A stretch of 42,289 nt of DNA, taken from a virus. The notes under the pieces are model-generated. The model worked only from the letters and a program-made list of their open reading frames with translations, was not told where the DNA came from and searched no databases. The position numbers and the translations under genes are program-made. Positions 1 to 41,921 of the stretch are shown here, piece by piece; positions within the stretch are counted from its first letter, which is position 1, and each line of letters begins with the position of its first letter. Where the stretch lies: positions 1 through 42,289 of the IMG/VR virus record IMGVR_UViG_3300032291_003009; one strand, written 5' to 3'.

Positions 1-123
1 GTTCGGTTTTTGTCTAGGTGCGTTTTTGGTCGGCACATTCAAATAGTATAGCTTCCTTGTGCCGTCTAATCTGAAGTCCATTCAGCGTGTGCCAATGGCT
101 CATGTTTCGGATTAATTTAGGAA
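1..123. repeat. Terminal direct repeat (left copy), circular-contig overlap
   Basis: These bases are identical to 42167-42289. A perfect repeat only at the two ends of a contig is the usual sign of a circular or circularly permuted molecule assembled with an overlap. It runs into the end of the endolysin gene (stop near 14), so the right-hand copy carries a duplicate fragment of that gene. A true short terminal repeat of the virion DNA is a less likely alternative. Confidence 0.9.
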
Positions 124-754
124 TCCCGCCAAGGCTTTTGTCTTTTAGTGCATCGACTATTTCCCTCATCTCCTCACGCCTAGTGCCAGTCAATGAGGTG
201 CCTCGGTTGTAAGCGATACTAAGCAATGCCGTTCTTTGCAGAGGGAGGAGGCCGTCCCAATTCGGCCACAGCTTCCTCGATCTCTCGATCCACTTAGGCA
301 ATGTGTACTTACTGAAGTGAGCCAAAGCGGTGGTGAATGGGATGTATACGGATGAAAGACCAGTTTGGCAGTCCTCAGCATTCCACCCCCTAAAGCCTAT
401 CACTTTCATCAGCTTGTTGAATGTCTCTGGGGCCAAGAACTCCTTCCACTCCCGCTCGAATTCTTCTTTAGATAAGTGGCCGAGGTCGCAACCTATGCCA
501 ATGGTGATTCCGCTATCGCCAGTATTCGGTCTGCACACTCCGCTCAAGTAGTCTTCGTAGTACCTCCCACCGCCCACCTCAAAATCAATGATGGCATCGA
601 TGCCCTCTTGGGTGAGTAGCTCCACTGCGTCAACCGCAACTGGGGCTAAAACTATTGGCGCAGGCTTGGGTTGTGGGGCTGAGGCAACTGGCTTTTTGGC
701 AGGCGATTTCCTCTTCGTGATGCCTCTGCCGATGGTATTGTCGAGCCATCCCAT
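14..754 (-). CDS. Endolysin, pesticin/T4-lysozyme-like peptidoglycan hydrolase
   Basis: This 246-residue protein should cleave host peptidoglycan at lysis or, given its place after the ejection-protein genes, during entry. Residues 1-45 are a basic, Pro/Ala-rich leader with no signal peptide. From about residue 50 a lysozyme-like domain begins. Glu59 in IIDFEVGGG, Asp80 in TGDSG and Thr84 in ITIGIG match the Glu-Asp-Thr order of the T4 lysozyme/pesticin fold, and the IGIGCDLGH stretch is typical of phage pesticin-like lysins. The C-terminal half is helical, with an SIAYNRG motif common in these enzymes. It is the last gene of the minus-strand late operon, 32 bp after the giant ejection protein. 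The catalytic residues are assigned from motif position only. Confidence 0.8.
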   Translation of the reverse strand: MGWLDNTIGRGITKRKSPAKKPVASAPQPKPAPIVLAPVAVDAVELLTQEGIDAIIDFEVGGGRYYEDYLSGVCRPNTGDSGITIGIGCDLGHLSKEEFEREWKEFLAPETFNKLMKVIGFRGWNAEDCQTGLSSVYIPFTTALAHFSKYTLPKWIERSRKLWPNWDGLLPLQRTALLSIAYNRGTSLTGTRREEMREIVDALKDKSLGGIPKLIRNMSHWHTLNGLQIRRHKEAILFECADQKRT

Positions 755-3700: not shown

Positions 3701-6700
3701 GCCTCCGCACGAGCCGTCTTATAGTTGCCAGTAAACTCACCAGTGTAGCGCATGAACATCACGTCTGGTCTGCCGTTATTGAATTTAGAGTAAGCCTTAT
3801 AGTCCCATCCCTCTGGCCTAAACTCATCGTTAAACTTCAGCTTGGCTACTGGCTCAAATCCGTAGTCCCAATAAAGCTTTGGAAGGATCGTATCAAACCC
3901 ATTCAACCAGAGAGACCTTCCTCCACGCATATGGAGAGCTGCGTCCATTGCCACACGCACAAGAGTTGGAGTTGCATTCTGCGACCTAGTAACAGCCCCA
4001 ACCTCTCCATTCTTCGCAACTGAAACTGTGGCAGTTTCGCCACCCCATGAGGCTTGGATTAGATCGTAGTCTTTATATTGATCTGGACTGAGTACATCTA
4101 CCGATGTGCCGAATTTGGCTTCGGACTTATTCTTGCTGGCGTTCTGAACAAACTCCTCTGGAGTAAGTTCTCTTACATCATAAAGTCGTTGAGCATCTGA
4201 GAGGCTTCCTTCTCGTCCTTCGCCAGACCCTCCTCGATAAGCGACCTCACCCTTGAATCCTGCGAGTAGGATGGGCTTGACACTTCCGTCAGCGCCTTGT
4301 CTCCAGCTTTCTTTATCAGACTCATTAAGTCTTCCTGCTTCAACGAGCGCTTGCCTTGTGTATTCTGAGGAAGGTTCATTTGATACAGCTCCTTTGTAAC
4401 CCGATTTGCCAGTTGCGTCAATTATATAAAACCACCTAAGAGCTTGGAGGGCAGACTCATCTAGCTTTATGCCAGTGCTTTCCTCGAAGTTCCTATTGAA
4501 TGCGGTAGCCCACTTCTGATACATCGCCCTTTCACTCCCAGTGGCAATTCCAGTGTTAAAATTGCCTTCTTCATCAATGGCTTTTCTAAAGAGATTAGGC
4601 CAGTAAGACCTTCCGATCCTAGACTCCCATACGTCTGTGACTGTGAATCGGCTATCACCAAGCCAATTCATCATGTATGCACCAACCTTCGGCCCGAAGG
4701 TGAAGGCTCTGGGAATGTTGATGTCTTGGCCAGTGGCCTCCATTACAACTTGCTTGATCGCTGGGCCATCCACTCCCCCCGAGTAACCCAGCCCACGCTT
4801 CCACTTGTTAAGCTCTGTCAGAGTTAGGGTGGATTGCATGAGTTTGGCGGTGCCAGCATATCCATTTTCTTTAGTGAGACTCTCAAGCACCTTCAGTGAG
4901 GTTGCTTTCGTTCCACCAGTCTTACCTATGAACGTGAACGGAGACTCGAGAACAACTGGGCCTCCGCTCTTCGGAGACTTACCGAGCTTAATTGCGTCAA
5001 AGTTGCCATCCTTAATGAACAATGAGAATGCGGTCACTGTCTCATGCATGTTGTCGCCGAGGGATGTGTCTGGGGATAGAACCGATGCCATCATTTTGAA
5101 CATGGTGGTCAGCTCTGGGTTCTCCCTCACTTCTGGGAAAGCTTTCGTTAGGAGATTCTCGTTAACCTTAATATCCGCAGAGTAGTACCTTGCAAAATCT
5201 GGGTTGCTCGCAACGAATGAGCCCAAGTCAGCCACCGCTTGTTTGGCTGCCGTCTCGATCCCAGCCTTATCCATCTTTAGTCCCTTTTGCCCAAGGCTGA
5301 TTAACAGCTTTGGCCAAAACTCTTCAAAGAATGCGTCTTGGAACTTACCGCCGTTCTCATTTCTCATTGCCACAGCTATCTTAACCGCTTCATTGATTGG
5401 ACTTTTAGGAAGCTCGGCCTTCACCTCTTCTCTTCCACGAGTGGCCTCTTGCTGAGTCTGTGCTGACCCACGAGGAACTAGGCGTGTGGCCACATTCGGG
5501 CTCGCTGGCTCGCCAAACTCTGGCTTGATTCCGTATCTCGGGCCAAGCTCAGCCCAGCTCTTAAACGCATTGTTCATTGCATCGCCTTGGCCAAGTGCTC
5601 CGCTGATCCTCTGCAACACAGACCTAAACACCCCAGCAGTCCGTCCGATAATTCCATCAGTCGTGGCTTTACCCATGGCCCAATCCGCATTCTCAACCAT
5701 GATGCGCTCCGCAAACCATTCCCTTAAGCCCACTGTGTCCCAAGGAGCCACCGATGTTTCTAGCTGTTGGCCAGAGGCAATGCGTGGGGAAATTCCGTCT
5801 TTTATGTTGCCATTAGAATTGAATAGAGGGCCAGTCTTAGTACGCATCTCAGCTGCGTATAGCTCGGCAAAAGACCTCTTTACGTTGTCGGGGAGGGTGT
5901 CCCAGAAAACGTGTCCAGCTTCGTGGGTGAACTCACCAACTTGCTGTCTGAATGTGGCGATGCGATCCGATAGCCAAATCAAAGCTCTGCGAGGATCGTA
6001 AGCTGCTACAGCTCTGTCTGAGTATCCTTCTGGCTTGGGGCCGAGGAAGATTTCCAGCTCGGCTGCGCCTTTTGGTGCGATCCTGCGAAGAGCATTGAGC
6101 AGTGCTTGCCCCATCTTGGAGGCAAGAGACTTCTGCTCTTGCGTGGGTACGCCACGCTCGGAGTATTGCATGCGATCTGGGGCAGAAGGGAAGTAAGGCT
6201 TGCCACTCTTCTCAGCTTTCTTCCTGCCAATCTCTGGCTTCCTGCGTGGGAAAGCTGGTTCCTTCTTTTTTTCTACTGGAGGAGCGCCAGCCTGCGATCT
6301 GTCTGGAGCCGTTGGGAAATAAGGAGTCTTCGGTTGTTCCCTTGGAGCTTCCTGCGGAAGCCGACTCTGCTTGGCAGCCTCAAGAGTTATAGCGTTAGAC
6401 TGAGCTTGAGTAACTGGACGTTCTGCTGGTTGATCTGTCTGAGTGGGCTGCGTTTGGGGAAAGTTTTTGCGGGGCTCAGCCATGTTACTGTACCAAGCTG
6501 AATCGGCCCTATACCCAGCGAGCCTAAAGTTCCTTTCGGCCACGCTCATGGGCACCACGTCACCAATCTTGGGCATCTTAGACGGCTGGCCAGTGGCTGT
6601 GGTGGTGCCTTCAAGCTGTGCAATATCTCCAGCAAGCTCGTCTGGAATATAGGTGATCCTCACTCCCGACTTGTCTGGCAGCACCTCTCCCTCAATAAAC

Positions 6701-8244
6701 GTGGTCTTGCCACCGACTGGGCTCTTTAGATCAAGACGCACATTATCCCCAGCGTTTAGGGGAGGGGGCGTAAAGATAACTCGGCCAGTTACTGGTTCTT
6801 CAACTGTTTCAATCTGACGTGTCTCACGATTGATTCTTTGAGTTGTCTGAGTGCCCACTGGCACTGGCTCACCCTGCCCAGTGTTGGTCTGTGGCTTCGG
6901 AGCTTCAAGAAGAAGGGGATTGGCGGTGACTGTAGGGGCGTTATCTCCAGTAACTTTCAGCGTGATGCGCCGTCCCTCTGGCGTGATGTAGGTGATTTCA
7001 GTGGAGTTTTGGCCAGCTTCGTTCTGAGCATACTTCGTGCTCATCTTTTCCACAGTCGATCCATCTGGGATGCCAGCTGCCCTACGCAAAGCATCTGTAT
7101 TAAGGTTAGCCTGCTTGGCTTGCTCAGTGACTCGGTTGGCTAGGTTGTAAGCTCTGTTTTCTGGGCTGGCCAGAGTTGCTCCAGTATTAAATGCTGTGCC
7201 AGCTCCAGAGATAGTACCGCCCATCACAGCTCCCATCGCCATTGTATGCAGAACGTCCTGCGTTAAAGGTCTGTCTGGAGCTATCTCCATCAGCTTCATA
7301 AGAGTGTTGAGCTCTGTCTGCTGTAGTCCCATCACAACCGATCCTTGGACTGCCCCTCTGCCCATGGACTTCAAGATTTCATTCTTAGCCTGCCCAAGCG
7401 TGAGCCCCTTACCAACGTAAGGAGCTAAGGGCTTGATAAACTTGGCTGCCAGCGACTCGGTAAGAGCCATCTGGGGAGCTAGCGCAAGGGGAGTGTATGC
7501 GTAGGCAGCTTGTCTGGCAGCTTGCTCCGTTGCTCCGTTGTTCTTTGCGTCATCGTATCCCCATTTGGCCAAGAATCCCGCATTCGTTGGGATCGATGCA
7601 GCGCCACGAGTGGCAATGTTGGCACCAACAATCGCAGTTGTGTCGGCAACAAGCTTTGTTGCTTGGCCAGCGAAAGACTGCTTTACAGATTCATCGACTG
7701 GGAGGGCACGCCTAATGTCTTCGGCTGCCTGCTGCTGTGTATTTTTGTAATTGGCGTAGAAAGCATCTAGGTCTTCGTAGCTTGTTTTAAGTCCTTGCTT
7801 CTTTCGGTTCTGAATAAACTCATCGGCTTGCTGCTGAACCCTTAAATTGTCTAGGTCGTTATACCCAAAAGCTTTTTGTACCGCCGACCCCATATCCATG
7901 AGGCTGGCTGGAATTTCTCGTGTGAAGTACTTGCCAAGACCGAACAATCCAGTGGAGCCCTTCTCGGCTTCCAGCATCGGAACCTCTTGCCCAGCGCTTG
8001 TTATGGCATTTCTCTCTTCCTCGCTAAGCAAACTCGTTGGGGCTTGAGGAGGGAGCTCTTGATCTAGTAGCTGTTGGGTAGCTTGATCCTCTTGAATCGG
8101 CTGAGGCGCTGGCAGTGCAGCTTCTGCTTGAGGCGACTTGGCTTGGAATTCCTTTGTGTTCTTAATAGCAGATTCCATCTGCTCTTGAGACATATCATCG
8201 GGGAATTCCAGCTCCCCCCAAGGAGTATTGACTAACTGAGCCAC
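787..8244 (-). CDS. Giant internal virion/ejection protein with HExxH metallopeptidase-like and polyvalent-protein domains
   Basis: At 2485 residues this gene fills 18% of the genome. The N-terminus (GELEFPDDMSQEQM, residues about 10-24) is the short domain that opens many phage ejection proteins. Residues about 560-740 form a Pro/Gln-rich linker. HEAGH at 774-778 is an HExxH zinc-binding signature following a helical segment. Residues about 1150-1700 include a region resembling domains of large polyvalent proteins. The last 600 residues, including VNFTQRGQ near 2078, resemble the C-terminal domains of such proteins that travel with DNA into the cell. It lies last in a gp13-gp16-like series, the position of the T7 gp16 ejection protein. 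I see no N4-type virion RNA polymerase motifs. The function in the host cell is inferred: ejected with the DNA, possibly a protease or host-modifying enzyme. Confidence 0.72.
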   Translation of the reverse strand: MAQLVNTPWGELEFPDDMSQEQMESAIKNTKEFQAKSPQAEAALPAPQPIQEDQATQQLLDQELPPQAPTSLLSEEERNAITSAGQEVPMLEAEKGSTGLFGLGKYFTREIPASLMDMGSAVQKAFGYNDLDNLRVQQQADEFIQNRKKQGLKTSYEDLDAFYANYKNTQQQAAEDIRRALPVDESVKQSFAGQATKLVADTTAIVGANIATRGAASIPTNAGFLAKWGYDDAKNNGATEQAARQAAYAYTPLALAPQMALTESLAAKFIKPLAPYVGKGLTLGQAKNEILKSMGRGAVQGSVVMGLQQTELNTLMKLMEIAPDRPLTQDVLHTMAMGAVMGGTISGAGTAFNTGATLASPENRAYNLANRVTEQAKQANLNTDALRRAAGIPDGSTVEKMSTKYAQNEAGQNSTEITYITPEGRRITLKVTGDNAPTVTANPLLLEAPKPQTNTGQGEPVPVGTQTTQRINRETRQIETVEEPVTGRVIFTPPPLNAGDNVRLDLKSPVGGKTTFIEGEVLPDKSGVRITYIPDELAGDIAQLEGTTTATGQPSKMPKIGDVVPMSVAERNFRLAGYRADSAWYSNMAEPRKNFPQTQPTQTDQPAERPVTQAQSNAITLEAAKQSRLPQEAPREQPKTPYFPTAPDRSQAGAPPVEKKKEPAFPRRKPEIGRKKAEKSGKPYFPSAPDRMQYSERGVPTQEQKSLASKMGQALLNALRRIAPKGAAELEIFLGPKPEGYSDRAVAAYDPRRALIWLSDRIATFRQQVGEFTHEAGHVFWDTLPDNVKRSFAELYAAEMRTKTGPLFNSNGNIKDGISPRIASGQQLETSVAPWDTVGLREWFAERIMVENADWAMGKATTDGIIGRTAGVFRSVLQRISGALGQGDAMNNAFKSWAELGPRYGIKPEFGEPASPNVATRLVPRGSAQTQQEATRGREEVKAELPKSPINEAVKIAVAMRNENGGKFQDAFFEEFWPKLLISLGQKGLKMDKAGIETAAKQAVADLGSFVASNPDFARYYSADIKVNENLLTKAFPEVRENPELTTMFKMMASVLSPDTSLGDNMHETVTAFSLFIKDGNFDAIKLGKSPKSGGPVVLESPFTFIGKTGGTKATSLKVLESLTKENGYAGTAKLMQSTLTLTELNKWKRGLGYSGGVDGPAIKQVVMEATGQDINIPRAFTFGPKVGAYMMNWLGDSRFTVTDVWESRIGRSYWPNLFRKAIDEEGNFNTGIATGSERAMYQKWATAFNRNFEESTGIKLDESALQALRWFYIIDATGKSGYKGAVSNEPSSEYTRQALVEAGRLNESDKESWRQGADGSVKPILLAGFKGEVAYRGGSGEGREGSLSDAQRLYDVRELTPEEFVQNASKNKSEAKFGTSVDVLSPDQYKDYDLIQASWGGETATVSVAKNGEVGAVTRSQNATPTLVRVAMDAALHMRGGRSLWLNGFDTILPKLYWDYGFEPVAKLKFNDEFRPEGWDYKAYSKFNNGRPDVMFMRYTGEFTGNYKTARAEAPYVESYDKASEMASGKPQMSERGQQEFRNNFDEDSYTKTLGMHTAEVTEMAGAVANLVNSAYEGQVDPTALRVSTGKLRRLLVDKFADFKDFKKLLEKRGTLLPESSDFHTQEQNMHGIIGAKLEGLYDAHEAIIGTLKEVGLNKTMDAVVGGQKVNMGMVDLYLYARHAPERNARIFKLSEGEKTAGSGMTDSEASTILANLSPYEAQLSTVARMVYDLNRTKLRMMENAGLISAEARQAIETRYPNYSPLIGKAGATEEEQFSMDTGIGAGMTMIGRDIKPAKGRYTASDNILANAFHLQQRAVVRSERNITLKALAKLAGEFPDNGLVENVFELRANENTLTPEIIVYKENGQTKYLRLLDDDLVRSFKDSRGQLDQIFSLMGRGTRLMASMATTYNPAFSVPNLVRDFQTAIFNMSSTEIAGLERDFALKMPSAMKAVWHSESQAFRSGKWNERVSPQVAESMKYYKEFRENGGQMIFMGLRDAEYYQKKMDRLMPRNRNAIEVAGEVGQKFILGPYKEFLEHINSSLENATRLSAYITARERGLSPQKAANLSRNLTVNFTQRGQLTALNQIYMFFNASLAGSARMVETISTSPRGRAFAGSIVLGGFLQRLASRYLSDEDQNGIKEVDKVPAYQLSTNMVQALPNVPTWIKMPLAYGANVFWYLGTQMADMLPKEYGGMGKSPLKATGEFVKAAMNAFNPIGGGAEIVNSLTPAVAQPFVDISINKNFAGQPIYPTDNPFDASPDPYAFRTWSNPNPVIADMIQSIARFSGGNEIRPSLAEDALSTFGMGSFASPESVEYLFKSVFSGPYSIYSDLSKTFSGLSTSQGIDPNNLPIVRRFIGSPSDRSDSVLFKEAWQNISTARDELKLYMKNGDRKNADRVRAEYPAELASYDQFSRINYQLKSLRTQAKSYKSKGDTEGELRVQKMIRETQTQALGQYKKAVDRMGSKAGDKASDQVKSLFY

Positions 8245-16675: not shown

Positions 16676-16921
16676 TTACCTATTTAGTAGTCTTTCTTTG
16701 ATCAGTTCCCAAGCTATTGTAAAACCGATACCAACAACGGCAAGCATTCCAATCATCTTATGCCTTAGTAGTTCTAAGGCTGTAACTCTATTGTGTAAGT
16801 CTGCATAACGACTCAAACTTAACTGCATCATGTCAATCACGCCCTGCTGTCTTTCCTCGATGCGGATCACACGATCACGCACTTCCATTAAAGCCTTTCG
16901 ATCTCCGTAGTCTTCGTTCAC
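16676..16921 (-). CDS. XhlA-like/holin-like protein with C-terminal TM segment
   Basis: The protein has 81 residues. Residues 5-55 are charged and heptad-patterned (VRDRVIRIEERQQGVIDMMQ), followed by one transmembrane helix (MIGMLAVVGIGFTIAWELI, about 56-75) and a basic tail. This layout matches XhlA-type haemolysin/holin partners. The start is a GTG at 16921 that overlaps the TGA of the upstream lipoprotein gene (GTGA). Together they look like a second envelope-active pair, far from the endolysin gene. An i-spanin role is less likely because the membrane helix is C-terminal. Confidence 0.55.
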   Translation of the reverse strand: MNEDYGDRKALMEVRDRVIRIEERQQGVIDMMQLSLSRYADLHNRVTALELLRHKMIGMLAVVGIGFTIAWELIKERLLNR

Positions 16922-17070
16922 TTGGTTTTGCCAGCGTCTTCAGCCGCCCCCATGTCAGAGTAAACTGGTAGAACATTGTTATCCTGCTTGCGTGGCGAGC
17001 AGGATGAAAGAGCAAGGCAGAAAATGGACATGGTGATGAGGTTCAGTAGGTGGCGGTGATGGTTATTCAT
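16918..17070 (-). CDS. Small lipoprotein (Rz1-like candidate)
   Basis: The protein has 50 residues, counted from the ATG at 17070 that overlaps the stop of the lectin gene (TAATG). A hydrophobic signal (LLNLITMSIFCLA) ends in the lipobox LSSC, so lipidation at Cys24 and export are expected. The remaining 26 residues are polar. It is coupled by a GTGA overlap to the TM protein downstream. A small lipoprotein beside a TM protein suggests an outer-membrane spanin or a superinfection-exclusion lipoprotein; the sequence cannot decide. Confidence 0.55.
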   Translation of the reverse strand: MNNHHRHLLNLITMSIFCLALSSCSPRKQDNNVLPVYSDMGAAEDAGKTK

Positions 17071-18809
17071 TACGGAGTTGTGCTGATTACAAGCGTTCCA
17101 GTTGGGTCGAAATTTCCACCATAGTTTACCCATCCAGTTAAAGGTATGGATGCCCCGCTTGCAGTATTCGTGGCTACTGGAAAAGTCTGATCTGACATTC
17201 CGTAGTCTTCTGAGAATTGCTCAACATTACCATAGAGAGTCCAAGTACCTGAACCATATACCAAAATAGCTCCGTTCCCCTCGGTAGACCAAAATGTGTC
17301 GCTTTGTTTTACCAGCGGACTCCCAAGGCGGGGGTTGAAGTAGACTCCAGAGTAGTCGGGGGGGACTGAAAAGGACATTCCAGACACATAAAGATTAGTC
17401 GTAGAGAGAGGAAGAGTTGTAGGAGGAGTTGGGGGTGTAATACCATATTTAGCCATCAGATACGCCTCAACTTTCTGACGTTCTTCTGTTGTGAGTACTC
17501 GGTTGTAAACTGCAACTTCTGCAATTTTGCCTTTATAGTAATAAGCCCCATCAGCATCTTGATACCCAATATATAGTTGTCTTGGGTCACCCATTCCACC
17601 GACTTGGTTGTTATAGACGTTGTTAGGGTCAGAGTGCATCAAAGTACCATTAACGTAAGATTTCCAATCGTTATTAGTGCTATAAACTGAGTATACACTC
17701 CAATTATCTACAATCGGCACAGGAGGGGTAAGGCTATTTTTTCTATTTTCTGTAGCAAAGGCATCATAAACTTTGCAATCACCTCCGTATGGGTAGTGAC
17801 TTTGGGAGGCTGGGTCATTTCCTATTGTATCTCCAAAGTTTCCAAATATCGGCCCACTATCATCATTTGTGGAACACACATCATTAGCATAAGTAACAGC
17901 AAATGCGGTTGACCCTGTCGCACCCATAATGTTGTAATTTTCTCCCAAGGCTAAGGCGTGTCCAGCAAACGTAAGTGAAGGCTTTCCGTTTACGTCATTG
18001 TCATTAAAGCTGGGGCTACCATATGGATACACAGGATTAGAAATTGGACTTTGATCTAGCCAAGTTGTTACTTGATTGGTGACAATAGTAGCGGTTTCAA
18101 CAACTCCTGTCGGGGCAGACCCTTGCGGAAAAAAGCTTCCAGCCCCTACTGGTTCGCCAGTTCCCTCTATAATATCCCACGTTCCAATCCCCCAACCATC
18201 CACCTTTTCCGCTAAAACAAAAAAGCCACCTTCAGTACTAAACAAGCTTGCACTCCCATTTGGGTAAATCTCCATTATTCTGTTTGTGTCATAGCCTCCT
18301 TGCACTTGCTTGTAACTTTGAAAGCTCCCATTTTCTGCCTCCCATTGAAACGCATTATATGTTCCATTCCCAGATGAAGATGTTGCAGATGCACCAGTTA
18401 ATCCAGAGATTGTAACTGAAATAGGTTTTTTGCCTACTACGTACCAAGTGCTTCCGTGAAACGAATTAAAATCGTAATACCAAGGGTTTGGATATGTAAA
18501 ATTAGCAGTATTATACAATCTATATCTCTGGTTGCTTGAGTTAGATGGGGTTACCAGTATTTTATTGTTATTCGGCCCATTCATTGTGTAGCTAGTCGCC
18601 CCATTGCTGGGTATGCCATTAGGCTCATACACTCCATTAATAGATGAATCCGCACCGCTTAATGTTATGCGTGATTTGTAAGTGTAAGATAATCTCGTGA
18701 TTCCAGCATCGGCCTTTAGCCATAAAGACAATCCAGCGGGGGGGATGGGGGATGATAGTCCTCCAGCCCCACTCCGATTAGCCAATGATAGCCCAAGACC
18801 GAGCTTCAT
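17070..18809 (-). CDS. LamG/concanavalin-like lectin virion protein
   Basis: The protein has 579 residues. The start MKLGLGLSLANR is typical of phage surface proteins. Residues about 25-33 (GLSLWLKADAG) and 245-450 (TTWLDQSP, GKPSLTFAG, then GKIAEVAVYNRVLTTEERQKVEAYL) are the standard start and end of a LamG/concanavalin-type jelly-roll domain. Flanking it are two related modules with the phrase S-GVY and PNG/NPRLGS (residues about 45-130 and 470-560), probably carbohydrate-binding beta domains. It is likely a capsid or tail decoration that binds surface or environmental glycans. Codon choice is more AT-rich than in its neighbours, suggesting separate acquisition. Confidence 0.7.
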   Translation of the reverse strand: MKLGLGLSLANRSGAGGLSSPIPPAGLSLWLKADAGITRLSYTYKSRITLSGADSSINGVYEPNGIPSNGATSYTMNGPNNNKILVTPSNSSNQRYRLYNTANFTYPNPWYYDFNSFHGSTWYVVGKKPISVTISGLTGASATSSSGNGTYNAFQWEAENGSFQSYKQVQGGYDTNRIMEIYPNGSASLFSTEGGFFVLAEKVDGWGIGTWDIIEGTGEPVGAGSFFPQGSAPTGVVETATIVTNQVTTWLDQSPISNPVYPYGSPSFNDNDVNGKPSLTFAGHALALGENYNIMGATGSTAFAVTYANDVCSTNDDSGPIFGNFGDTIGNDPASQSHYPYGGDCKVYDAFATENRKNSLTPPVPIVDNWSVYSVYSTNNDWKSYVNGTLMHSDPNNVYNNQVGGMGDPRQLYIGYQDADGAYYYKGKIAEVAVYNRVLTTEERQKVEAYLMAKYGITPPTPPTTLPLSTTNLYVSGMSFSVPPDYSGVYFNPRLGSPLVKQSDTFWSTEGNGAILVYGSGTWTLYGNVEQFSEDYGMSDQTFPVATNTASGASIPLTGWVNYGGNFDPTGTLVISTTP

Positions 18810-22173: not shown

Positions 22174-24012
22174 TTACGCCTGCTGGGGAGCAGGCTGTTG
22201 TCCTTGTTGTTGAGCCTGTTGCTGAGCCATGGCTTGGCTCATCTGTGCAAGCTGTTTCCTAATAGCTCTTTCTGCGTTCTTGTCTCTCTGCCCAAGAGCC
22301 TGCAAGTGCTGTTCTAGGTGCTGGGCGTAAAGCTGTTGAGCCTGCGGGTTGCCACCGCCAGAAGCCTGCACTTGCTGCACTCTGCCAACCAGAGTCTGGA
22401 TATGCACCATGTGGTCATCATTTCCGTCCACTGATGCTGGCACTCCGCTCTCCATAACAAGATTCTCCATGGCCTGCTCTTCACCTTCGGTGAGAGCCTT
22501 GGCTCCATTGTCCACGATAAGCTTGTTTGCAAGAGAGGGATCATCCTGCTCAAGAACGGAACGGATGAGTCCAACTTGGTCAACTGTGGGATTGTTGGCG
22601 AACATCTGCATCCTCGCCACTGCCTTCTGGAATTGAACGGCCTTGTTAACTCCGTCAGCACTTCCACTGGGCATCACGGAATACTCGGCCTCCAGAGCCT
22701 TCTCTGGGAGAATCCCGAACTTGCCATTAAACATGAACACCAAGTCATTCTTGGCAAACTGGCAAAGGATTGACCACGCCTGCCGATAAACTTGTCCCAG
22801 CGAAAGCCTAAACACCCGAGCACGAAGGTCTGTGCTTTGTCCCATGAGTGCGCCGATCTGGGAAATCTCTGTGGCGGTACGAGCATTCTTTGAGCTCTGT
22901 TGTTGTCCCATTCCAAAGTCGGGCATGGCCACCAGATACTCGGCGATCATTCGCTGGTTTATCATCTCTTGATCAAAACTGATCGGAGGCTGAGGCATTG
23001 GTACTGGGGCCACCCCGACTGGGAGAACTGTGGCTGGCCCGAATCGGAAATTGTTTGAGTTAGGAATGTCCTGCTCACTGCGGAACATTGGACGATTGTA
23101 TAAAGTGATGGCATCTGCCTTTTCATTCATCAGCTTGCAGAGGTAGCTCTCGAAAGGAGCCACCACCTCGCAAATACCACGGCTCGAATAAACGCCCTTG
23201 TCCTTCACTTCCATAACAAACGGAACAAAGGGAACTTGTCCGTGTGAGAAGGGGAGCTCAAACGTGGGTCGCACGTCCAGCTCTGGGGCAACTGGTGAGA
23301 ATGTATGTACGTAGATAACACCCTTCTTGGGGTCACGCTCGTAAACTTCCCACACCACAACTTGATCTTTATCCACGCCCACAGTGATTCCTTCACGCCG
23401 AAGTTTCACGTCCTCGTAAGTAGTGAGCTTGGCTCCGTCAGCTTGACGGCCAACGATCTGGCTTAGAATCTCTTGGTTGTATAGCGAGTTGCCTTTGTAG
23501 GCATCATGGCTCATGTGCATCACGTGAGCCACACGCTCCACGTTCCGCATGTCATCAGTGTAGTAAGGTAGGATTACGTGGATTGGATCAACCGCATCAA
23601 AGCGAACAGAGCCAGTCTCCGCATCAAAGCTGGTCTTCAAGAAACCAAGACCGCTCGTGAGAAGGTGATCGATGCAAGTGAGAATCTCTAGCTCGATATT
23701 GCTCTTCTGCTTTAAGTGGTAATCAAACCAGATGCTCACCGCACGAGAGAGCTTCTCATCGGCGTATGGGCTAGATTCCGCAAAGGTTGCGATCAGCTCA
23801 TTTCCGTAAATCTGCTGATAATAAAAAGGCTTTAACTTCGAGACGATACTATCACTTAAGGGATAATGCAGATCGGCCTGCCAAGGCAAACGGCGTTTAC
23901 GCCGAAGGCCACCATGACGCATCTCGTACCACAGCCTCTGCCGTTCTTCCCAACCAGTGCGAGCTTGGATGTCTCCGATGAGTGCAGTGAAAAGTTCGTT
24001 ACGTTCTTTCAT
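22174..24012 (-). CDS. Portal protein
   Basis: The protein has 612 residues, the usual size for a podoviral portal. It has WQADLHYPLSDSIVSKLKP near residues 44-62, a long wing region, KSNIELEILTCIDHLLTSGLGFLK, and a stem/crown region with Pro-Gln motifs. The C-terminal 60 residues are Gln-rich (QAMAQQQAQQQGQQPAPQQA), as in barrel-forming tails of other portals. The ATGA overlap with the upstream lipoprotein gene (24009-24012) couples it to the lysis-like cluster. It would form the dodecameric DNA channel. Confidence 0.82.
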   Translation of the reverse strand: MKERNELFTALIGDIQARTGWEERQRLWYEMRHGGLRRKRRLPWQADLHYPLSDSIVSKLKPFYYQQIYGNELIATFAESSPYADEKLSRAVSIWFDYHLKQKSNIELEILTCIDHLLTSGLGFLKTSFDAETGSVRFDAVDPIHVILPYYTDDMRNVERVAHVMHMSHDAYKGNSLYNQEILSQIVGRQADGAKLTTYEDVKLRREGITVGVDKDQVVVWEVYERDPKKGVIYVHTFSPVAPELDVRPTFELPFSHGQVPFVPFVMEVKDKGVYSSRGICEVVAPFESYLCKLMNEKADAITLYNRPMFRSEQDIPNSNNFRFGPATVLPVGVAPVPMPQPPISFDQEMINQRMIAEYLVAMPDFGMGQQQSSKNARTATEISQIGALMGQSTDLRARVFRLSLGQVYRQAWSILCQFAKNDLVFMFNGKFGILPEKALEAEYSVMPSGSADGVNKAVQFQKAVARMQMFANNPTVDQVGLIRSVLEQDDPSLANKLIVDNGAKALTEGEEQAMENLVMESGVPASVDGNDDHMVHIQTLVGRVQQVQASGGGNPQAQQLYAQHLEQHLQALGQRDKNAERAIRKQLAQMSQAMAQQQAQQQGQQPAPQQA

Positions 24013-24227
24013 TTTGTATTATTCAGTTTGATTTGAGTTTCTAGGTCTATGATTGTGTTGAGTGCGTCTTTGCACCACATGGGTGCAGCTTTCCTTGCGC
24101 TCTCTGCATCTGGTCTATCCATTAACCTTTCAGCGTTTCGGCTTGTCACCACTCTCGTCTGAGTCGTGGCGCAACCCGCCATTAGCAATCCACCAGCTAA
24201 CAGCAGAACGATTCTTTTCAGCTTCAC
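24009..24227 (-). CDS. Outer-membrane lipoprotein, Rz1-like (o-spanin candidate)
   Basis: The protein has 72 residues from a GTG start at 24227 that lies inside the preceding reading frame in another phase. The N-terminal signal (KRIVLLLAGGLLMAGC) carries a clear lipobox, so the mature lipoprotein begins at Cys19. The mature part is short, polar and partly helical. Embedding of a lipoprotein frame within a TM-protein frame is the hallmark of Rz/Rz1 spanin pairs that fuse inner and outer membranes at lysis. It ends in an ATGA overlap with the portal gene. It lacks the proline richness of classical Rz1. Confidence 0.6.
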   Translation of the reverse strand: MKLKRIVLLLAGGLLMAGCATTQTRVVTSRNAERLMDRPDAESARKAAPMWCKDALNTIIDLETQIKLNNTK

Positions 24228-24324
24228 TTACAATATCCCTCACGCTCTTTTCGGAACGAGTTGGGATGAGTTTTTCAAGGATGCTGAGTATCGCACTGAG
24301 TATGCCAATGATTGCGCTGATCAC
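24130..24324 (-). CDS. Small inner-membrane protein, Rz-like (i-spanin candidate)
   Basis: The protein has 64 residues from a GTG at 24324 directly after the holin stop (TAA then GTG). Residues 2-20 (ISAIIGILSAILSILEKLI) are an N-terminal membrane segment, followed by a charged helix (SEKSVRDIVSEAEKNRS). The last 33 codons overlap the lipoprotein gene in a second frame, as in Rz/Rz1. It is short for an i-spanin, so an antiholin or a second holin is an alternative. The tight spacing argues that it is translated. Confidence 0.5.
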   Translation of the reverse strand: MISAIIGILSAILSILEKLIPTRSEKSVRDIVSEAEKNRSAVSWWIANGGLRHDSDESGDKPKR

Positions 24325-24492
24325 TTATTTGACAGCGTCTTTGGCGAGGATCAGTCCCACGCCAGCAGTGATGGCAGCGATGAGCGTGCCGATCTCTGGA
24401 ACCGATCCAGTTTTCAAGAAGGTGAGCCCAGCGTTAGCGAGAGCCACCACGATTGATAAAATTCCAGCCACAGTAGTTTTCCAGTTATTCAT
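24325..24492 (-). CDS. Small holin-like membrane protein
   Basis: The protein has 55 residues. The ATG at 24492 touches the TAA of the terminase gene. The translation starts MNNWKTTVAGILSIVVALAN, then a polar turn (KTGSVPEIG) and a second hydrophobic stretch (TLIAAITAGVGLILA) ending KDAVK. Two short TM helices with a W-K-T-T start and a GL-LAKDA end are typical of a widespread family of very small phage holins. The stop is followed directly by the GTG of the next gene. It probably times lysis together with the Rz/Rz1-like pair. Confidence 0.65.
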   Translation of the reverse strand: MNNWKTTVAGILSIVVALANAGLTFLKTGSVPEIGTLIAAITAGVGLILAKDAVK

Positions 24493-25923
24493 TTATTCAC
24501 CTCCTGCAAAGATTCCACAGTCAGCGTAGAACTCACGTTCCACCTCTTGATGTGGGAAGTACTCATTGTTACGCACGGATGTACTGTCTGTTTCAAATTC
24601 CGTCAACACCCCTCCAATGGGAACGGCCCCACACACTCCAGCTACTGCATCAGCTCGATCTGGACTGGACGCTCCACGTTTCCGCATTTCGTCTTTCGGC
24701 TCTAAACCAAGCTTCCCAGAGGAATTCACCCGCACCCTTCTTGTGACTAGCTGTGTGTTAAGCAGCTCATCGTCTGGTAGGATGACTTGCTTCTTCTCAA
24801 CCAATCTTGCGAGCTCCCACCAAACCTCAGCCCCTCTGTGCATATAGGCTGGATTGCGTGCTTTCGCCCCGAAGTTAAACCTATGTACGCTCCATCCTTT
24901 TTCGGCCATTCGATCATTCATCGGTCTGCCTAACCCGCCATCGTCTGCCCATACTCCGTCTTTAGGTACTCCAAGCTTGGTAAGCTCAGTCATAGCTCTG
25001 CCTACAGTGCTCATGGTGTCCTTAGCCACCCAAGCAATCAAAGGCAGTACCTTGTTGCCATTACGCACCGCAATCACTGTTTCGTCACCGCCACCTCCCC
25101 AGTCGATAAAGGCGAGGGGAGTGTCTTTAAGTAGTGATGGGGGCTTGTCTTTTAGGTCACGTAACTTGCTCATATTAAGAACAGTGTCACCCTCATCCCC
25201 AGCCAAGAACTCGGAAAAGATCATACTGCGTACTAGAGGGTGATCTGCTCCATATTCATCGATCTGGTCTTGGATGTAAGAGCCACGATCTACGAGATGC
25301 TTGCAGTCGTAAGCCGTCACGCTGTGTTTAAGCCACTTGCTAGTAGGGTTTAAGAAACACTTTGCGAATCTTGTGTCGATGTTCCCAGTGCTACTCATGG
25401 CCAGCCAAGATGTTGGCTGGCAACGCTCTGCTGCGTGCCATATCCCATCTGGGATAGATTTAGCTTCGTCAAATATCATAAGCAGTCGGTCATTGTGCCA
25501 CCCCTCGAATCGAGTGGGTTCGTCTGTGCTAAAGCCAATAGCCTTCGATCCGTTGGGGGCTGCTAAGTCAGAAGCGTTAATAGCCCACCCATTTAGCACT
25601 CCACCCCATTGGTGAATTTGCTGCCATAATTGATCACGGACTTGGCGAAAAACTCCTGCGGTGGTGACTACTTGGCTTCTTGGAAATCTAGCGCACCACC
25701 ATACAACTAACGGCGCAGCCACCATACTGGTCTTCCCAGAGCCGTTTGCAGCCTTTAATGCGACTCGGTTAAAAGATGCCAAGTCATCTAGCACCTTCTT
25801 TTGCCAATCGTACTGTTGAAGCTTGAGGAAGTGCTCTGAGAATGCAGAGGGGCTCTTGCGGAAAAGACTGTAGTCGATTGCGGGGGCTGGCCCAGTGCTT
25901 ACGGCTCGCTTCTGTACAGCCAT
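24493..25923 (-). CDS. terL: Terminase large subunit
   Basis: The protein has 476 residues. The ATPase domain has a Walker A (ANGSGKTS, Lys64) and a Walker B (LLMIFDEAK, Asp152-Glu153). The RNase H-like nuclease domain has Asp274 in FIDWGGGGDET and the late acidic motif SPDRADAVAG near residue 420. This ATP-driven motor cuts concatemeric DNA and packs it through the portal. It lies 6 bp after the small subunit gene and abuts the holin-like gene. All key residues appear present, and the length is normal. Confidence 0.9.
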   Translation of the reverse strand: MAVQKRAVSTGPAPAIDYSLFRKSPSAFSEHFLKLQQYDWQKKVLDDLASFNRVALKAANGSGKTSMVAAPLVVWWCARFPRSQVVTTAGVFRQVRDQLWQQIHQWGGVLNGWAINASDLAAPNGSKAIGFSTDEPTRFEGWHNDRLLMIFDEAKSIPDGIWHAAERCQPTSWLAMSSTGNIDTRFAKCFLNPTSKWLKHSVTAYDCKHLVDRGSYIQDQIDEYGADHPLVRSMIFSEFLAGDEGDTVLNMSKLRDLKDKPPSLLKDTPLAFIDWGGGGDETVIAVRNGNKVLPLIAWVAKDTMSTVGRAMTELTKLGVPKDGVWADDGGLGRPMNDRMAEKGWSVHRFNFGAKARNPAYMHRGAEVWWELARLVEKKQVILPDDELLNTQLVTRRVRVNSSGKLGLEPKDEMRKRGASSPDRADAVAGVCGAVPIGGVLTEFETDSTSVRNNEYFPHQEVEREFYADCGIFAGGE

Positions 25924-25929
25924 GGTATT

Positions 25930-26637
25930 CTAGGGCTGGCTCTCTGTAGAGGTAGGGGGCTTCTTTTTATATGAAATTTTTTTCGAAGGGGGGGATACTG
26001 TAGTGGTGGCGGGGGGAGGGGGGGTGGTGGGGGGGGCTAAATGATCCGATTCTGAAATTTCTGCATTCTGGTGATCTGCGGAATCTTTTGAGAGAAGGAT
26101 GGATCGTTCACTGACCTCTCCAGAATTTTCAATCGAAATAGTTTCCCCAATACTATTCTGCTGAGAGGGAAGAGTGATAACTTTGTCTGGTTCTTCGTCA
26201 GCAAGACGAGAGAGAACTTCGGCACCGAGGGCTTGGGACATGGTATGTCCTATGGCTATCTCTTGTGCTCTCGAGAAGTACTTCGGTTGACACCGCTCGA
26301 GTAGCCACGCTCGAGCCTGCCACGTTTTTTTTGCGACTTCATTGATGCCACTAAGGTGCTCCTGCACGAATAACGCACGCCCTCGATCTATCGCCTCTTG
26401 CCACTCGGGGAATAACGTCCTCCACTTCTGCACGCTGGTCTCACTCACTCGGAGCAGTGAGCACGCATGGCTCATCGGCATTCCCAGCTCCATGAGCTTG
26501 GCGAAACTCTCAGCGAGCTGTGGAGTGGGTTTCGCTCGTGTACCGCATGCCAGCCTCGCCCCCTCACATTCTTTCGCCACCAGTGCGATCCGATTCTCCT
26601 CGGGGGCTTCCACATTCTGAGCAGTCTTCTTCGGCAT
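25930..26637 (-). CDS. terS: Terminase small subunit
   Basis: The protein has 235 residues. Residues about 40-80 form a helix-turn-helix (FAKLMELGMPMSHACSLLRVSETSVQKW), followed by a helical core with ARAWLLERCQPKYFSRAQE, the W-LER-P-Y pattern of many TerS proteins. The C-terminal 70 residues are Pro/Thr/Ser/Lys-rich and probably disordered. It would recognise the packaging site and load TerL. It is the first gene of the late operon and contains one GGACA-N5-TGTCC palindrome. No strong ribosome-binding site is visible before the ATG. Confidence 0.75.
   Translation of the reverse strand: MPKKTAQNVEAPEENRIALVAKECEGARLACGTRAKPTPQLAESFAKLMELGMPMSHACSLLRVSETSVQKWRTLFPEWQEAIDRGRALFVQEHLSGINEVAKKTWQARAWLLERCQPKYFSRAQEIAIGHTMSQALGAEVLSRLADEEPDKVITLPSQQNSIGETISIENSGEVSERSILLSKDSADHQNAEISESDHLAPPTTPPPPATTTVSPPSKKISYKKKPPTSTESQP
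25988..26036 (+). other. G-rich, quadruplex-capable tract in terS
   Basis: The plus strand holds G runs of 7, 6, 7 and 8 bases, the last three within 26 bases (26011-26036). The minus strand codes for the Pro/Thr tail of TerS. A quadruplex on the template strand could slow transcription between terS and terL, but proline coding alone may explain it. Confidence 0.4.
26236..26250. promoter_or_regulatory. Operator-like palindrome copy 1 (in terS)
   Basis: The site reads GGACA-TGGTA-TGTCC and is followed by TA. It shares the consensus GGACA-N5-TGTCCTA with three other sites. The coding context means its conservation as an operator is less certain here. Confidence 0.45.
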
Positions 26638-32602: not shown

Positions 32603-33526
32603 ATGATTAAGTTCAGATCACTAACGAACCCCGCTCACATCAAGTCCATCTTGGGTGAGAGGGCGTACCGCCGAGTCAGAGCCAGTGGCGTGGCCTTTGA
32701 CTTGAGCGATGCGGGAGCACAGCTTCGCACTGCGAAGCATGTGCATACAATGCATGAGCTGGTTAAACAGCACGTCAATGAACACAATGCGGTGTGGGCT
32801 AAGGAGCACGAGGAGGACTTGGCAAAGTACTCCAAGCTCCTCAGAGCTAAGGCTCCGTCTCATGTGTTCACTAAGTTCGACTTGGAAAGGTTGGGTGGCA
32901 GGGGGGAAAAAGATCGCAGAACCATTCTGGCGATCACGATCCTCTCCAAGTGGAACGAGATCGTACACACCAAGTGGTACGTTGAAGAGGGTGATACAGC
33001 CCATCGTTATCTTCTGCCAGTGGTGATGGCAGAGTTTAACCACTACCTAACTTGCAAGTGGTATGAGATGCTGGCGAAGCAGTCGGGCACATTCTTGACC
33101 GATGACAGCTACGTCCTCAAGGATTACAAGGCTCATCGCCAGACCAAGGATACTGGCGGTGCTGGTTTTATCTTTAGGCGTGCTCGTGCACTCCCGAGAC
33201 TAAGGGAGAAAGTTCTGGCTTGGTTCGGAACGCCACTAACTCCAGCAGAGTTTGATAAAACAGAATCTCTCATCCATCCAGAGAGAGCTGATGCTCTCTG
33301 CGATAACGAGCAGAGGTGCACACGTACCGACTATAAGGTCGGAGACTACGGAAGCTTGGAGCTGGTGTTTCAGCCTAGGTGGGAGCCAAAAAGCAAGAGT
33401 GGATGGAATTATGGTGCGACCCTAGACATTGAGGCACACATCGACATACGTGATGAAAAGGGAAGGGCGTTGGCCAGAAAGATTGCCAGCCTCATCTCTG
33501 AAGCTAATAAGGAGGCAGGCGTATGA
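32603..33526 (+). CDS. Hypothetical 307-residue protein of the accessory operon
   Basis: A GAGG lies before the ATG. The protein is mixed alpha/beta with many aromatic and basic residues. The central part (LSKWNEIVHTKWYVEEGDTAHRYLL) is helical, and the last third carries strands (YGSLELVFQPRWEPK, GATLDIEAHIDIRD). I see no classic catalytic motif. It is the largest unknown of the operon and shares an ATGA overlap with the final gene. It may be the operon's effector or a DNA-associated protein; this is a guess. Confidence 0.62.
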   Translation: MIKFRSLTNPAHIKSILGERAYRRVRASGVAFDLSDAGAQLRTAKHVHTMHELVKQHVNEHNAVWAKEHEEDLAKYSKLLRAKAPSHVFTKFDLERLGGRGEKDRRTILAITILSKWNEIVHTKWYVEEGDTAHRYLLPVVMAEFNHYLTCKWYEMLAKQSGTFLTDDSYVLKDYKAHRQTKDTGGAGFIFRRARALPRLREKVLAWFGTPLTPAEFDKTESLIHPERADALCDNEQRCTRTDYKVGDYGSLELVFQPRWEPKSKSGWNYGATLDIEAHIDIRDEKGRALARKIASLISEANKEAGV

Positions 33527-33780
33527 ATACTAAGGAAGCCTCAATAGTGTTGGGCAAGCTTGCATTCATATTTATCGCAAGCTGGTTCGCCATCGCTGGT
33601 GGGTGTGCAAAGGCACGAGGCGATGACGGAGTGTGGGGAACAAACGGAGAGTGGATAGGACACTCTACGGATAACGGAAGCTACTCGTCCCTATGGGATA
33701 GGAATGGCGAGTGGAGGGGATTTATCCAGAACGACTGGGTGAATCCTCACGTACCTAAGATTGATCGTGGGAGAGATTGA
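33523..33780 (+). CDS. Exported or lipoprotein-like protein with NGEW repeats
   Basis: The protein has 85 residues. Residues 10-28 form a hydrophobic signal (LGKLAFIFIASWFAIAGGC) ending AGGC, a weak lipobox, so it may be a lipoprotein with Cys28 or simply a membrane-anchored protein. The mature part repeats a motif: WGTNGEWIGHS and WDRNGEWRGFI. It is the last gene of the plus-strand operon, 19 bp before the terminator. A cell-surface role, such as exclusion of other phages during lysogeny, is possible. Confidence 0.6.
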   Translation: MNTKEASIVLGKLAFIFIASWFAIAGGCAKARGDDGVWGTNGEWIGHSTDNGSYSSLWDRNGEWRGFIQNDWVNPHVPKIDRGRD

Positions 33781-40687: not shown

Positions 40688-40951
40688 ATGCAACACAGAA
40701 AAACAGCAATATCGAGACCAGCGGGGAAACCCTTGGCTCCTAACATTGGATGGCGTGCTCCCGCCGAATTGCGGGATCGCCTATTGAAATTCAGCCAGAC
40801 CACTGGCTGGAGCTGCAATCATTGTGCAGTGGACTTGGTCGAGGCAGCTCTCGACATTATTTATAACCCAGAAAAACCACTTCACCGCTCCATCGTAATT
40901 GGTCGGGCGCTGATAAAGGAGACTGGCCATGGCCTCACTCAAAAAACGTAA
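40688..40951 (+). CDS. Ribbon-helix-helix-like protein upstream of integrase
   Basis: The protein has 87 residues from the ATG at 40688; a TTG two codons earlier is possible. NIGWRAPAELRDRLLKFSQTTGWSCNHCAVDLVEAAL has the strand-helix-helix arrangement and the W/G turn of RHH DNA-binding proteins. The last 23 bp overlap the integrase start, so expression is linked. It may autoregulate the integrase or control lysogeny; RHH dimers usually bind short palindromes. Confidence 0.55.
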   Translation: MQHRKTAISRPAGKPLAPNIGWRAPAELRDRLLKFSQTTGWSCNHCAVDLVEAALDIIYNPEKPLHRSIVIGRALIKETGHGLTQKT

Positions 40952-41921
40952 CGGAGTTTGGTACGTAGGATACAACGAGCTTGGCAAGTGGAAGCTTGTC
41001 ACCACCAAGATACGTACTGATGGCAAAGAGCCACCAGCAGAGGTGCTGGCCATACGCAACGAGATAGAGAGAAGGGTGGCTGGTGCCAAATATGGGGTGA
41101 CTTCTTTACGCAAGGTGAGCGTAACAAGCGCAGCTAAAGAGTGGGTACGTTGTGGTGCAAGTAAAAGCACGAATCAGTGTAGGGTCACTGCTCTAAAAGG
41201 CATTGAGAGATGGGCTAATCGAAACGTGGACGAGATAACTAAGGTGGACGGAGCAGAGTATATAGCCGAGTTATGCTCTAGCGGTTTGGCCCCAAACACA
41301 GTGAAGGTAAGGGTACAGCTTCTCAGAGCTTGGTGGATGTGGTGTGCAGACAGGGGCATGTGCGATGCGATGTTCTGCCCATTCAGTCAAAAGCTTGTCA
41401 CCCTAAAGAATGTGCAAGTGCGTCCGAAGAGGGCGCTAACAAAAGAAGAGCAGGAAAAGATTATTCACCACCTCAAGGGGAAGACGTTAACAGTTACGAT
41501 GATTGGCCTTTATTCTGGCAGTAGGATTAGTGAATGTTTGGGGGTTACCCCAGACAGCGTTAGCTATGAAAAGAAGCTCATCACTATCATTGATGCCAAG
41601 AGTAAGAGGCAAATCTTTAAGCCACTTCACCCTAGGCTCATGTCATATCTTCAAGGTATCAGCCAAGAGGATTGGCCTATGGGTCTATCCACAAGCATGG
41701 CCTACTTCCAGTTTAAGGCTGCTGCCATGGCTGCTGGGTGCCCAGAGGCAAGCCACCACTACCTTCGTTACACTCTTGCCCAAGAGCTCCTCCATGCTGG
41801 CGTGGATGCTAGGCAAGCTTCGGCAATCGTTGGCCACTCAGTGCTTGTCCACACACAAGTCTACGCCCATGCAGATGCCCAGCGATTATCCTCAGCGCTG
41901 GACAAATGCTTCCCGCAGTAA
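40929..41921 (+). CDS. int: Tyrosine recombinase, phage integrase
   Basis: The protein has 330 residues. GGAG stands 9 bases upstream of the ATG. Residues 1-60 form the arm-binding domain (LKKRNGVWYVGYNELGKWK), 65-160 the core-binding helical domain, 165-330 the catalytic domain. Catalytic residues: Arg199 in GSRISECLG, Lys near 228 in AKSKRQ, His277-xx-Arg280 in HHYLRYTL, His303 in VGHS, and the nucleophile Tyr312 in QVYAH. It integrates the phage at a host att site and, with an excisionase, reverses this. A repeat-rich non-coding stretch follows, the likely attP. Confidence 0.88.
   Translation: MASLKKRNGVWYVGYNELGKWKLVTTKIRTDGKEPPAEVLAIRNEIERRVAGAKYGVTSLRKVSVTSAAKEWVRCGASKSTNQCRVTALKGIERWANRNVDEITKVDGAEYIAELCSSGLAPNTVKVRVQLLRAWWMWCADRGMCDAMFCPFSQKLVTLKNVQVRPKRALTKEEQEKIIHHLKGKTLTVTMIGLYSGSRISECLGVTPDSVSYEKKLITIIDAKSKRQIFKPLHPRLMSYLQGISQEDWPMGLSTSMAYFQFKAAAMAAGCPEASHHYLRYTLAQELLHAGVDARQASAIVGHSVLVHTQVYAHADAQRLSSALDKCFPQ

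Follow-up and report, generated by a model that had tools for sequence, protein, structure and literature searches.

Genome organization and gene layout

The DNA analyzed here (hereafter the window) is a 42,289-nucleotide stretch that comprises a whole virus record (IMGVR_UViG_3300032291_003009). It carries an exact terminal repeat of 123 nt and is therefore circularly closed at approximately 42.2 kb. The late genes on the minus strand occur in the order TerS, TerL, g1, g2, g3, and a portal-like gene (Table 1).

Table 1. Features of the terL-portal region and of other candidate lysis loci in the window.
Feature	Positions	Strand	Description
TerS	25930-26637	-	Late gene preceding TerL
Terminase large subunit (TerL)	24493-25923	-	PHROG_2, E 1e-22
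g1, holin-like	24325-24492	-	ORF, ATG start, 55 aa, two hydrophobic helices
g2, candidate inner-membrane partner (i-spanin-like)	24130-24324	-	ORF, GTG start, 64 aa; N-terminal hydrophobic helix with 16 charge-free residues
g3, candidate o-spanin lipoprotein	24009-24227	-	ORF, GTG start, 72 aa; signal peptide with lipobox LMAGC (residues 15-19), mature part 54 aa
Two-frame coding region, g2 frame and +1 g3 frame	24130-24227	-	98 nt; both frames open in 30/30 distinct modules
Portal / head-tail connector protein	22174-24012	-	PHROG_332, E 1e-10; 40 related viral loci
Endolysin-like gene (Pesticin / T4-lysozyme type)	14-754	-	Weak Pfam and PHROG matches; signal peptide: none seen
XhlA-like protein (our own reading of the sequence)	16676-16921	-	81 aa, coiled-coil-like, C-terminal membrane helix
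Second small lipoprotein frame (SSC)	16918-17085	-	Just before the XhlA-like gene; tail shared with G001 and G002

A preliminary description of this DNA had recognized a 55-residue gene with two transmembrane segments at the terL stop, and the start of g1 (24492) does abut the end of terL (24493). The same description proposed that a GTG gene follows directly, with a second GTG inside it opening a lipoprotein frame in another phase, and the sequence bears this out. The g1 stop and the g2 start are adjacent (TAAGTG), and the GTG start of g3 lies within g2 in the +1 frame, 10 nt after a GAGG. The two genes share 98 nt, and g3 then extends 121 nt beyond the end of g2, its last 4 nt overlapping the portal start (ATGA). 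Because g3 continues so far past g2, the pair belongs to the overlapped class of spanin genes, and the embedded Rz/Rz1 plan that had been suggested is excluded by the coordinates, as g3 is not wholly inside g2.

The cluster had also been placed 24 kb from the endolysin gene. An endolysin-like gene is present near the end of the window, but its family support is weak (Pfam Pesticin, E 5e-4, below the Pfam cut-off; PHROG endolysin, E 0.006), and with circular closure it lies about 23 kb downstream of the module on the same strand. Relatives of this gene occur in 10 of 15 records. Just upstream of it, a 2485-aa protein (787-8244, minus strand) matches several large phage families without known function (PHROG_14770, E 1e-94). 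On the plus strand, a 330-aa frame (40929-41921) resembles a tyrosine integrase by eye, which would suggest a temperate phage, and an opposite-strand region holds an 85-aa lipoprotein-like frame (AGGC; 33523-33780) with very weak similarity to the Pfam 4-fold beta flower.

Conservation and selection in both reading frames

A search with the portal protein yielded 40 viral loci, 35 of which include enough upstream sequence; in the others (L016, L035, L044, L045, and L047) the sequence breaks off at the module or close to it. Both g2 and g3 are located between terL and portal in 34 of these 35 loci. The module is absent from this position in L046, which at 43% portal identity is the most distant locus with upstream sequence. 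Together with the window, the 34 loci provide 35 modules, corresponding to 30 distinct but not independent g2-g3 sequences that fall into six clades. In every one of these 30, g2 is open and the overlapping +1 frame is open with a lipobox. Stops in one of the frames, which the preliminary description had named as grounds for abandoning the proposal, were looked for in the same modules and none were found. When the synonymous codons of g2 are shuffled, an open +1 lipoprotein frame arises in 2-21% of the shuffled sequences, depending on which of the 30 distinct modules is used.

Substitution patterns likewise indicate that both proteins are maintained. Outside the overlap, g2 has a pN/pS of 0.19 and g3 one of 0.11 (65 pairs, six clades equally weighted). 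Within the overlap, synonymous change (pS) in the same 65 pairs of the window group is lower in either frame, at 0.17 instead of 0.30 for g2 and at 0.19 instead of 0.44 for g3. Two clades deviate: pS does not drop in the g2 frame of the L011 clade, and it drops only slightly in the g3 frame of the L023 clade. The same trend is evident among 50 distinct modules of a third phage group described below, where pS goes from 0.35 to 0.24 for g2 and from 0.57 to 0.28 for g3. The portal gene was considered as a yardstick, but one clade starts its portal at a different site, which distorts the pN/pS, and the value was left out. These results establish the three genes as a real and conserved cluster with dual coding, and the purifying selection in both frames that had been proposed as support for it is evident in these values.

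Use of GTG as the start codon had been claimed for both spanin-like genes and is seen in the window for g2 and g3 alike. For g2, this conserved weak start is found in 19 of the 30 distinct modules in the window group and in 50 of 50 in the third group (e.g., L243, position 3178).

Distribution among phage groups

A search with a g3 profile (A2) recovered 59 related loci, including 25 distant ones (L072-L096) from a second phage group, which we call "marine" in a loose sense, from the look of the source sets. Wherever the contig shows these genes, the order is again terL, g2, g3, and portal, and the overlap is +1 in all 16 of the 25 marine loci that were measured. No g1-like gene was found between terL and g2 in L078, L080, L082, and L096, with L080 having a doubtful 39-aa hydrophobic frame. 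In three of these relatives, an HExxH-like protein of 91-92 aa is encoded in the interval from terL to g2 (L078, 5412-5690; L082, 5380-5655; L096, 5444-5722). Record G008 has two small membrane genes near its tail genes.

The g1 slot is filled by an unrelated protein (type B) in other relatives, and a search with this protein led to a third, large group, labeled "freshwater" on the same loose basis. The best 80 of 215 relatives were kept, and 65 loci were examined outside the contigs set aside. The +1 g2-g3 pair is present in 64 of these 65, and the remaining locus ends too early. Two of the 64 contigs were already in the first group, leaving 62 further loci. The pairs of this third group are flanked by TerL, TerS, and a portal of the SU10 type. 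The terL-g2-g3-portal order is found, then, in two phage groups beyond that of the window.

Optional cargo is evident at some loci. Eight members of the window group (L012, L013, L014, L019, L029, L031, L039, and L043) carry a 54-aa lysine-rich protein (PHROG_34011) between g1 and g2, and some of these add a 78-81-aa protein (PHROG_7595, weak DUF5754). In L001, a 35-aa basic ORF before g1 takes the place of this g1-g2 cargo.

A tblastn search of 50,697 phage records revealed no named homologues of g2 or g3, and bacterial genomes scanned for a host with the portal and type B g1 proteins gave no match. The closest named TerL proteins are from Akkermansia phages, and their identity of 35-36% is too distant for a host assignment.

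The holin-like gene g1

For g1 itself, neither PHROG nor NCBIfam gave a match, and nothing in Pfam passed the cut-off. Two unrelated proteins alternate in the slot: type A, which has two helices and is the form found in the window, and type B, of 56 aa. For example, L011 carries a type B g1 (2655-2828) where the window has type A, although its g2 and g3 are closely related to those of the window. Exchange within one slot is common for holins. The type A family (A6) extends to 437 viral stretches, of which the best 80 were kept and 71 loci were examined. Among these 71, the first following gene with 80 codons or more encodes an Amidase_3 / PHROG_435 endolysin in 10 loci, a 179-aa PHROG_3000 family without known function in 20, and a lipoprotein-like product in 13. 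Holins are small proteins with 1-3 transmembrane helices that permit endolysin release, and g1, with its two hydrophobic helices, is a candidate that most likely acts as a holin or a holin partner.

The candidate lipoprotein partner g3

Across relatives, the mature part of g3 after the lipid cysteine measures 54-60 residues, and its stop usually lies on the portal start. A 26-member alignment spanning two groups has invariant columns at C19, P39, W51, A55, L56, D61, L62, and E63. AlphaFold predicts helices at residues 30-71 with a pLDDT of about 90. Of 30 g3 members, 21 match PHROG_812, which is annotated as an 'Rz-like spanin' (best E 1e-4), a marginal homology. PHROG_3580, whose function is unknown, is matched by 25 members (best E 1.3e-4), and many other PHROGs of unknown function are hit as well. 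The window g3 itself reaches spanin PHROGs at E values of 0.03-0.06 only, and PHROG_812 is not among its listed families. A fold search with g3 produced nothing below E 4.9, and its PDB profile matches (15 residues of the repeat protein BurrH and a non-significant peroxidase) were judged spurious.

Features expected of an overlapped-class o-spanin are present, namely a lipobox in 30 of 30 modules and an out-of-frame overlap that extends past g2. The +1 overlap itself recurs in the 30 distinct modules, the 16 marine loci, and the 64 loci of the third-group search (best 80 of 215). A unimolecular spanin was considered and rejected, given that g3 has no C-terminal transmembrane helix and ends in a polar segment (ALNTIIDLETQIKLNNTK). 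From its sequence features, g3 is a good candidate for an o-spanin.

The atypical candidate inner partner g2

The assignment of g2 is more difficult. An i-spanin is expected to have an N-terminal transmembrane helix in N-in/C-out orientation. We compared the g2 helix with those of lambda Rz, T7 18.5, P2 LysB, and phiKMV 46, a small control set (n = 4) taken from annotated records, by using hydrophobicity scales; such scales do not prove topology. The four control i-spanins have no charges in the best 18-residue window, helical moments of 0.01-0.12, a net charge of +1 in the N-terminal flank, and 19-23 charge-free residues. The window g2, by comparison, has two charges near the end of its best 18-residue window, a moment of 0.44, 16 charge-free residues, and an N-terminal flank without charge. 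Its relatives depart further from the controls. The longest charge-free stretch is shorter than 17 residues in 80 of 85 distinct g2 proteins and at least 17 in the other 5, with values of 6-15 in most relatives. Stretches of 16-19 charge-free hydrophobic residues are found in the window g2 and in two marine types. The commonest g2 types of the third group, MIGAILNIIASILRLIPG and MLRAILEIIAAVFRIIPG, are clearly amphipathic, with moments of 0.5-0.6 (0.61 for MLRAILEIIAAVFRIIPG), and another g2 helix, MFRAILEIISRLLGFLPN, has a moment of 0.62. AlphaFold returns two helices for g2 at a pLDDT of 62, with no confident fold. The preliminary description had named a lack of membrane insertion as a further ground for abandoning the proposal, and for part of the family it looks likely from these sequences that g2 does not insert into the membrane.

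Other properties of the pair can be set against a published survey. A non-lipid cysteine is present in 14 of 45 pairs from the first two groups (window counted) and in none of 47 pairs from the third; the window pair has one periplasmic cysteine, located in g3 (...MWCKDAL). On these counts, a periplasmic cysteine is not a feature of the g2-g3 family, whereas the survey reported at least one in 507 of 528 spanin pairs (PMC6139136). Counted from the end of the membrane helix, the two proteins together have 98 residues in the window and 91-103 across the 45 pairs, which falls inside the range of 62-300 that the same survey gives for the combined periplasmic length of known pairs (PMC6139136).

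A second candidate lysis region

A second possible lysis spot lies beside the tail-fibre genes (16676-17133, minus strand), where the small lipoprotein frame (SSC) and the XhlA-like gene are found. Besides g1 and g3, the window thus contains one further candidate each for the holin and the o-spanin, the latter without an N-terminally anchored partner.

Proposed function and alternative explanations

We consider it probable that g1, g2, and g3 form a compact module for membrane lysis that belongs to the overlapped spanin type, in which g2 and g3 are best read as a new, divergent family of spanin-like pairs whose inner partner is atypical and short. As a holin or holin partner, g1 would open the inner membrane to a cytoplasmic endolysin. 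After export, the g3 protein would receive a lipid on its lipobox cysteine and stay anchored in the outer membrane, while the N-terminal helix of g2 would keep that protein at the inner membrane. The C-terminal part of g2 might then meet the helical end of g3 and, once the wall has been cut, the pair would disrupt or fuse the outer membrane. The membrane topology, the g2-g3 contact, and the role in lysis are what we infer here, whereas the frames, their dual coding and conservation, the gene order, and the lipobox are direct results of the computation. The original suggestion of a lysis-like cluster is retained on the strength of the dual coding, the Rz-like PHROG matches of the lipoprotein in relatives, and a holin-like g1 family found beside an amidase endolysin, and it is shorn of the embedded plan and of the claim that the location is unusual.

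Several other explanations merit consideration. Perhaps g2 is not a transmembrane i-spanin at all, but a short amphipathic, membrane-active protein that is retained in the cell until the membrane is opened by the holin and then escapes alongside the endolysin to perturb the outer membrane, where the lipoprotein g3 would be its receptor. The amphipathic helix with one to three charges in most clades is consistent with this idea, as are the moments of 0.61 (MLRAILEIIAAVFRIIPG) and 0.62 (MFRAILEIISRLLGFLPN) versus 0.01-0.12 in the four i-spanins, the short charge-free stretch, the lack of a positive N-terminal flank, and the mostly absent cysteine. However, the 16-19 charge-free hydrophobic residues of the window g2 and two marine types suffice for a short membrane span, and both the export route and the activity assumed for g2 are hypothetical. 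We regard this explanation as unlikely. A smaller probability is given to the possibility that membrane lysis really depends on the XhlA-like protein and the neighboring small lipoprotein, which would leave the terL-portal module with some other envelope function, such as superinfection exclusion by a lipoprotein. Relatives of the XhlA-like protein do occur in 8 of 15 records, one of them matching the PHROG_689 holin (E 8e-4), and the second lipoprotein has a conserved tail (LPxYSDMxAAxDAxxxK) in the window, G001, and G002. Yet this spot is less widely kept than g2-g3, its lipoprotein was seen in three genomes only, the membrane helix of the partner is C-terminal rather than N-terminal, and the g1 family adjoins endolysins elsewhere.

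Several phage lipoproteins have exclusion or moron-type roles, and g3 could be a stand-alone surface lipoprotein of this kind, like Bor or Llp, with g2 as a coupled regulatory or leader peptide. The constant coupling of g2 and g3 would fit such an arrangement, and the GTG start in 19/30 and 50/50 distinct g2 genes suggests tuned translation. Nonetheless, the module sits inside a late morphogenesis operon, and the purifying selection on the g2 protein sequence would be needless for a mere leader, so we find this explanation improbable. Finally, the locus also contains other short ORFs and a 155-aa antisense ORF, which raises the matter of whether the g2 and g3 frames are themselves chance ORFs. 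This reading is contradicted by the conservation of both frames and the purifying selection acting on them, which rule it out for practical purposes.

Our preference thus remains with a spanin-like pair, although g2 departs enough from known i-spanins to count as a variant, and it may act by a mechanism that is not transmembrane. In its most speculative form, which we think has a modest chance of being correct at best, the system would lack a transmembrane i-spanin altogether. A mostly cysteine-free, amphipathic partner of 52-68 residues would dock on an outer-membrane lipoprotein, perhaps after exiting through the holin lesion. In several phage groups its gene, placed between terL and portal, would be permanently overlap-fused to the lipoprotein gene. 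If g2 does work without a proper membrane span, then the accepted picture of spanins bridging and fusing two membranes would need a second route.

According to the survey by Kongari et al. (2018; PMC6139136), approximately 13% of the Gram-negative phages examined there have no recognisable spanin. The g2-g3 family shows where some of these missing spanins may hide: outside the endolysin neighborhood, in overlapping frames that carry no annotation, and with an inner partner that does not satisfy the standard criteria for a transmembrane segment and a cysteine. With its three genes contained in 484 nt, the module is small enough for a direct lambda lysis assay.

Comparison with known systems

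The preliminary description regarded a position between terL and portal as unusual, and our literature search for an overlapped spanin at this site found nothing relevant, as judged by title. Comparison with named phages shows, however, that the location is not exceptional. The T7 pair gp18.5/gp18.7 is likewise a +1 spanin pair beside the terminase genes, and it is far from the lysozyme gene, as in the window. It differs in being embedded, in lying between TerS and TerL instead of TerL and portal, and in having an i-spanin of 143 aa. In the TerL-holin-lysozyme-Rz block of phiKMV, the holin start abuts the TerL stop just as g1 does, but the endolysin is inside the block and no portal gene comes next in the stretch shown. 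In Akkermansia phage Chantilly, whose TerL is 33% identical, an endolysin gene lies just upstream of portal and is itself preceded by genes for small membrane proteins, although a homologue of g2-g3 was not recognised there.

Other likenesses concern the proteins themselves. Through 21 of its 30 members (best E 1e-4), the g3 family touches the 'Rz-like spanin' PHROG_812, which is not among the families listed for the window g3. The disruptin gp28 of phiKT is a small membrane-active protein that is used in place of spanins, and it is not known to have a paired lipoprotein; its likeness to g2 is one of kind only. P2 LysB/LysC differ in adjoining the endolysin gene and in the size of LysB, which has 141 aa and a clean 19-residue transmembrane domain, compared with the 64 aa and the 16-residue, partly amphipathic helix of g2. 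In its gene plan, though, the P2 pair is like g2-g3: both are short pairs in which the o-spanin lipoprotein frame starts in the +1 phase inside the i-spanin gene and runs past its end.
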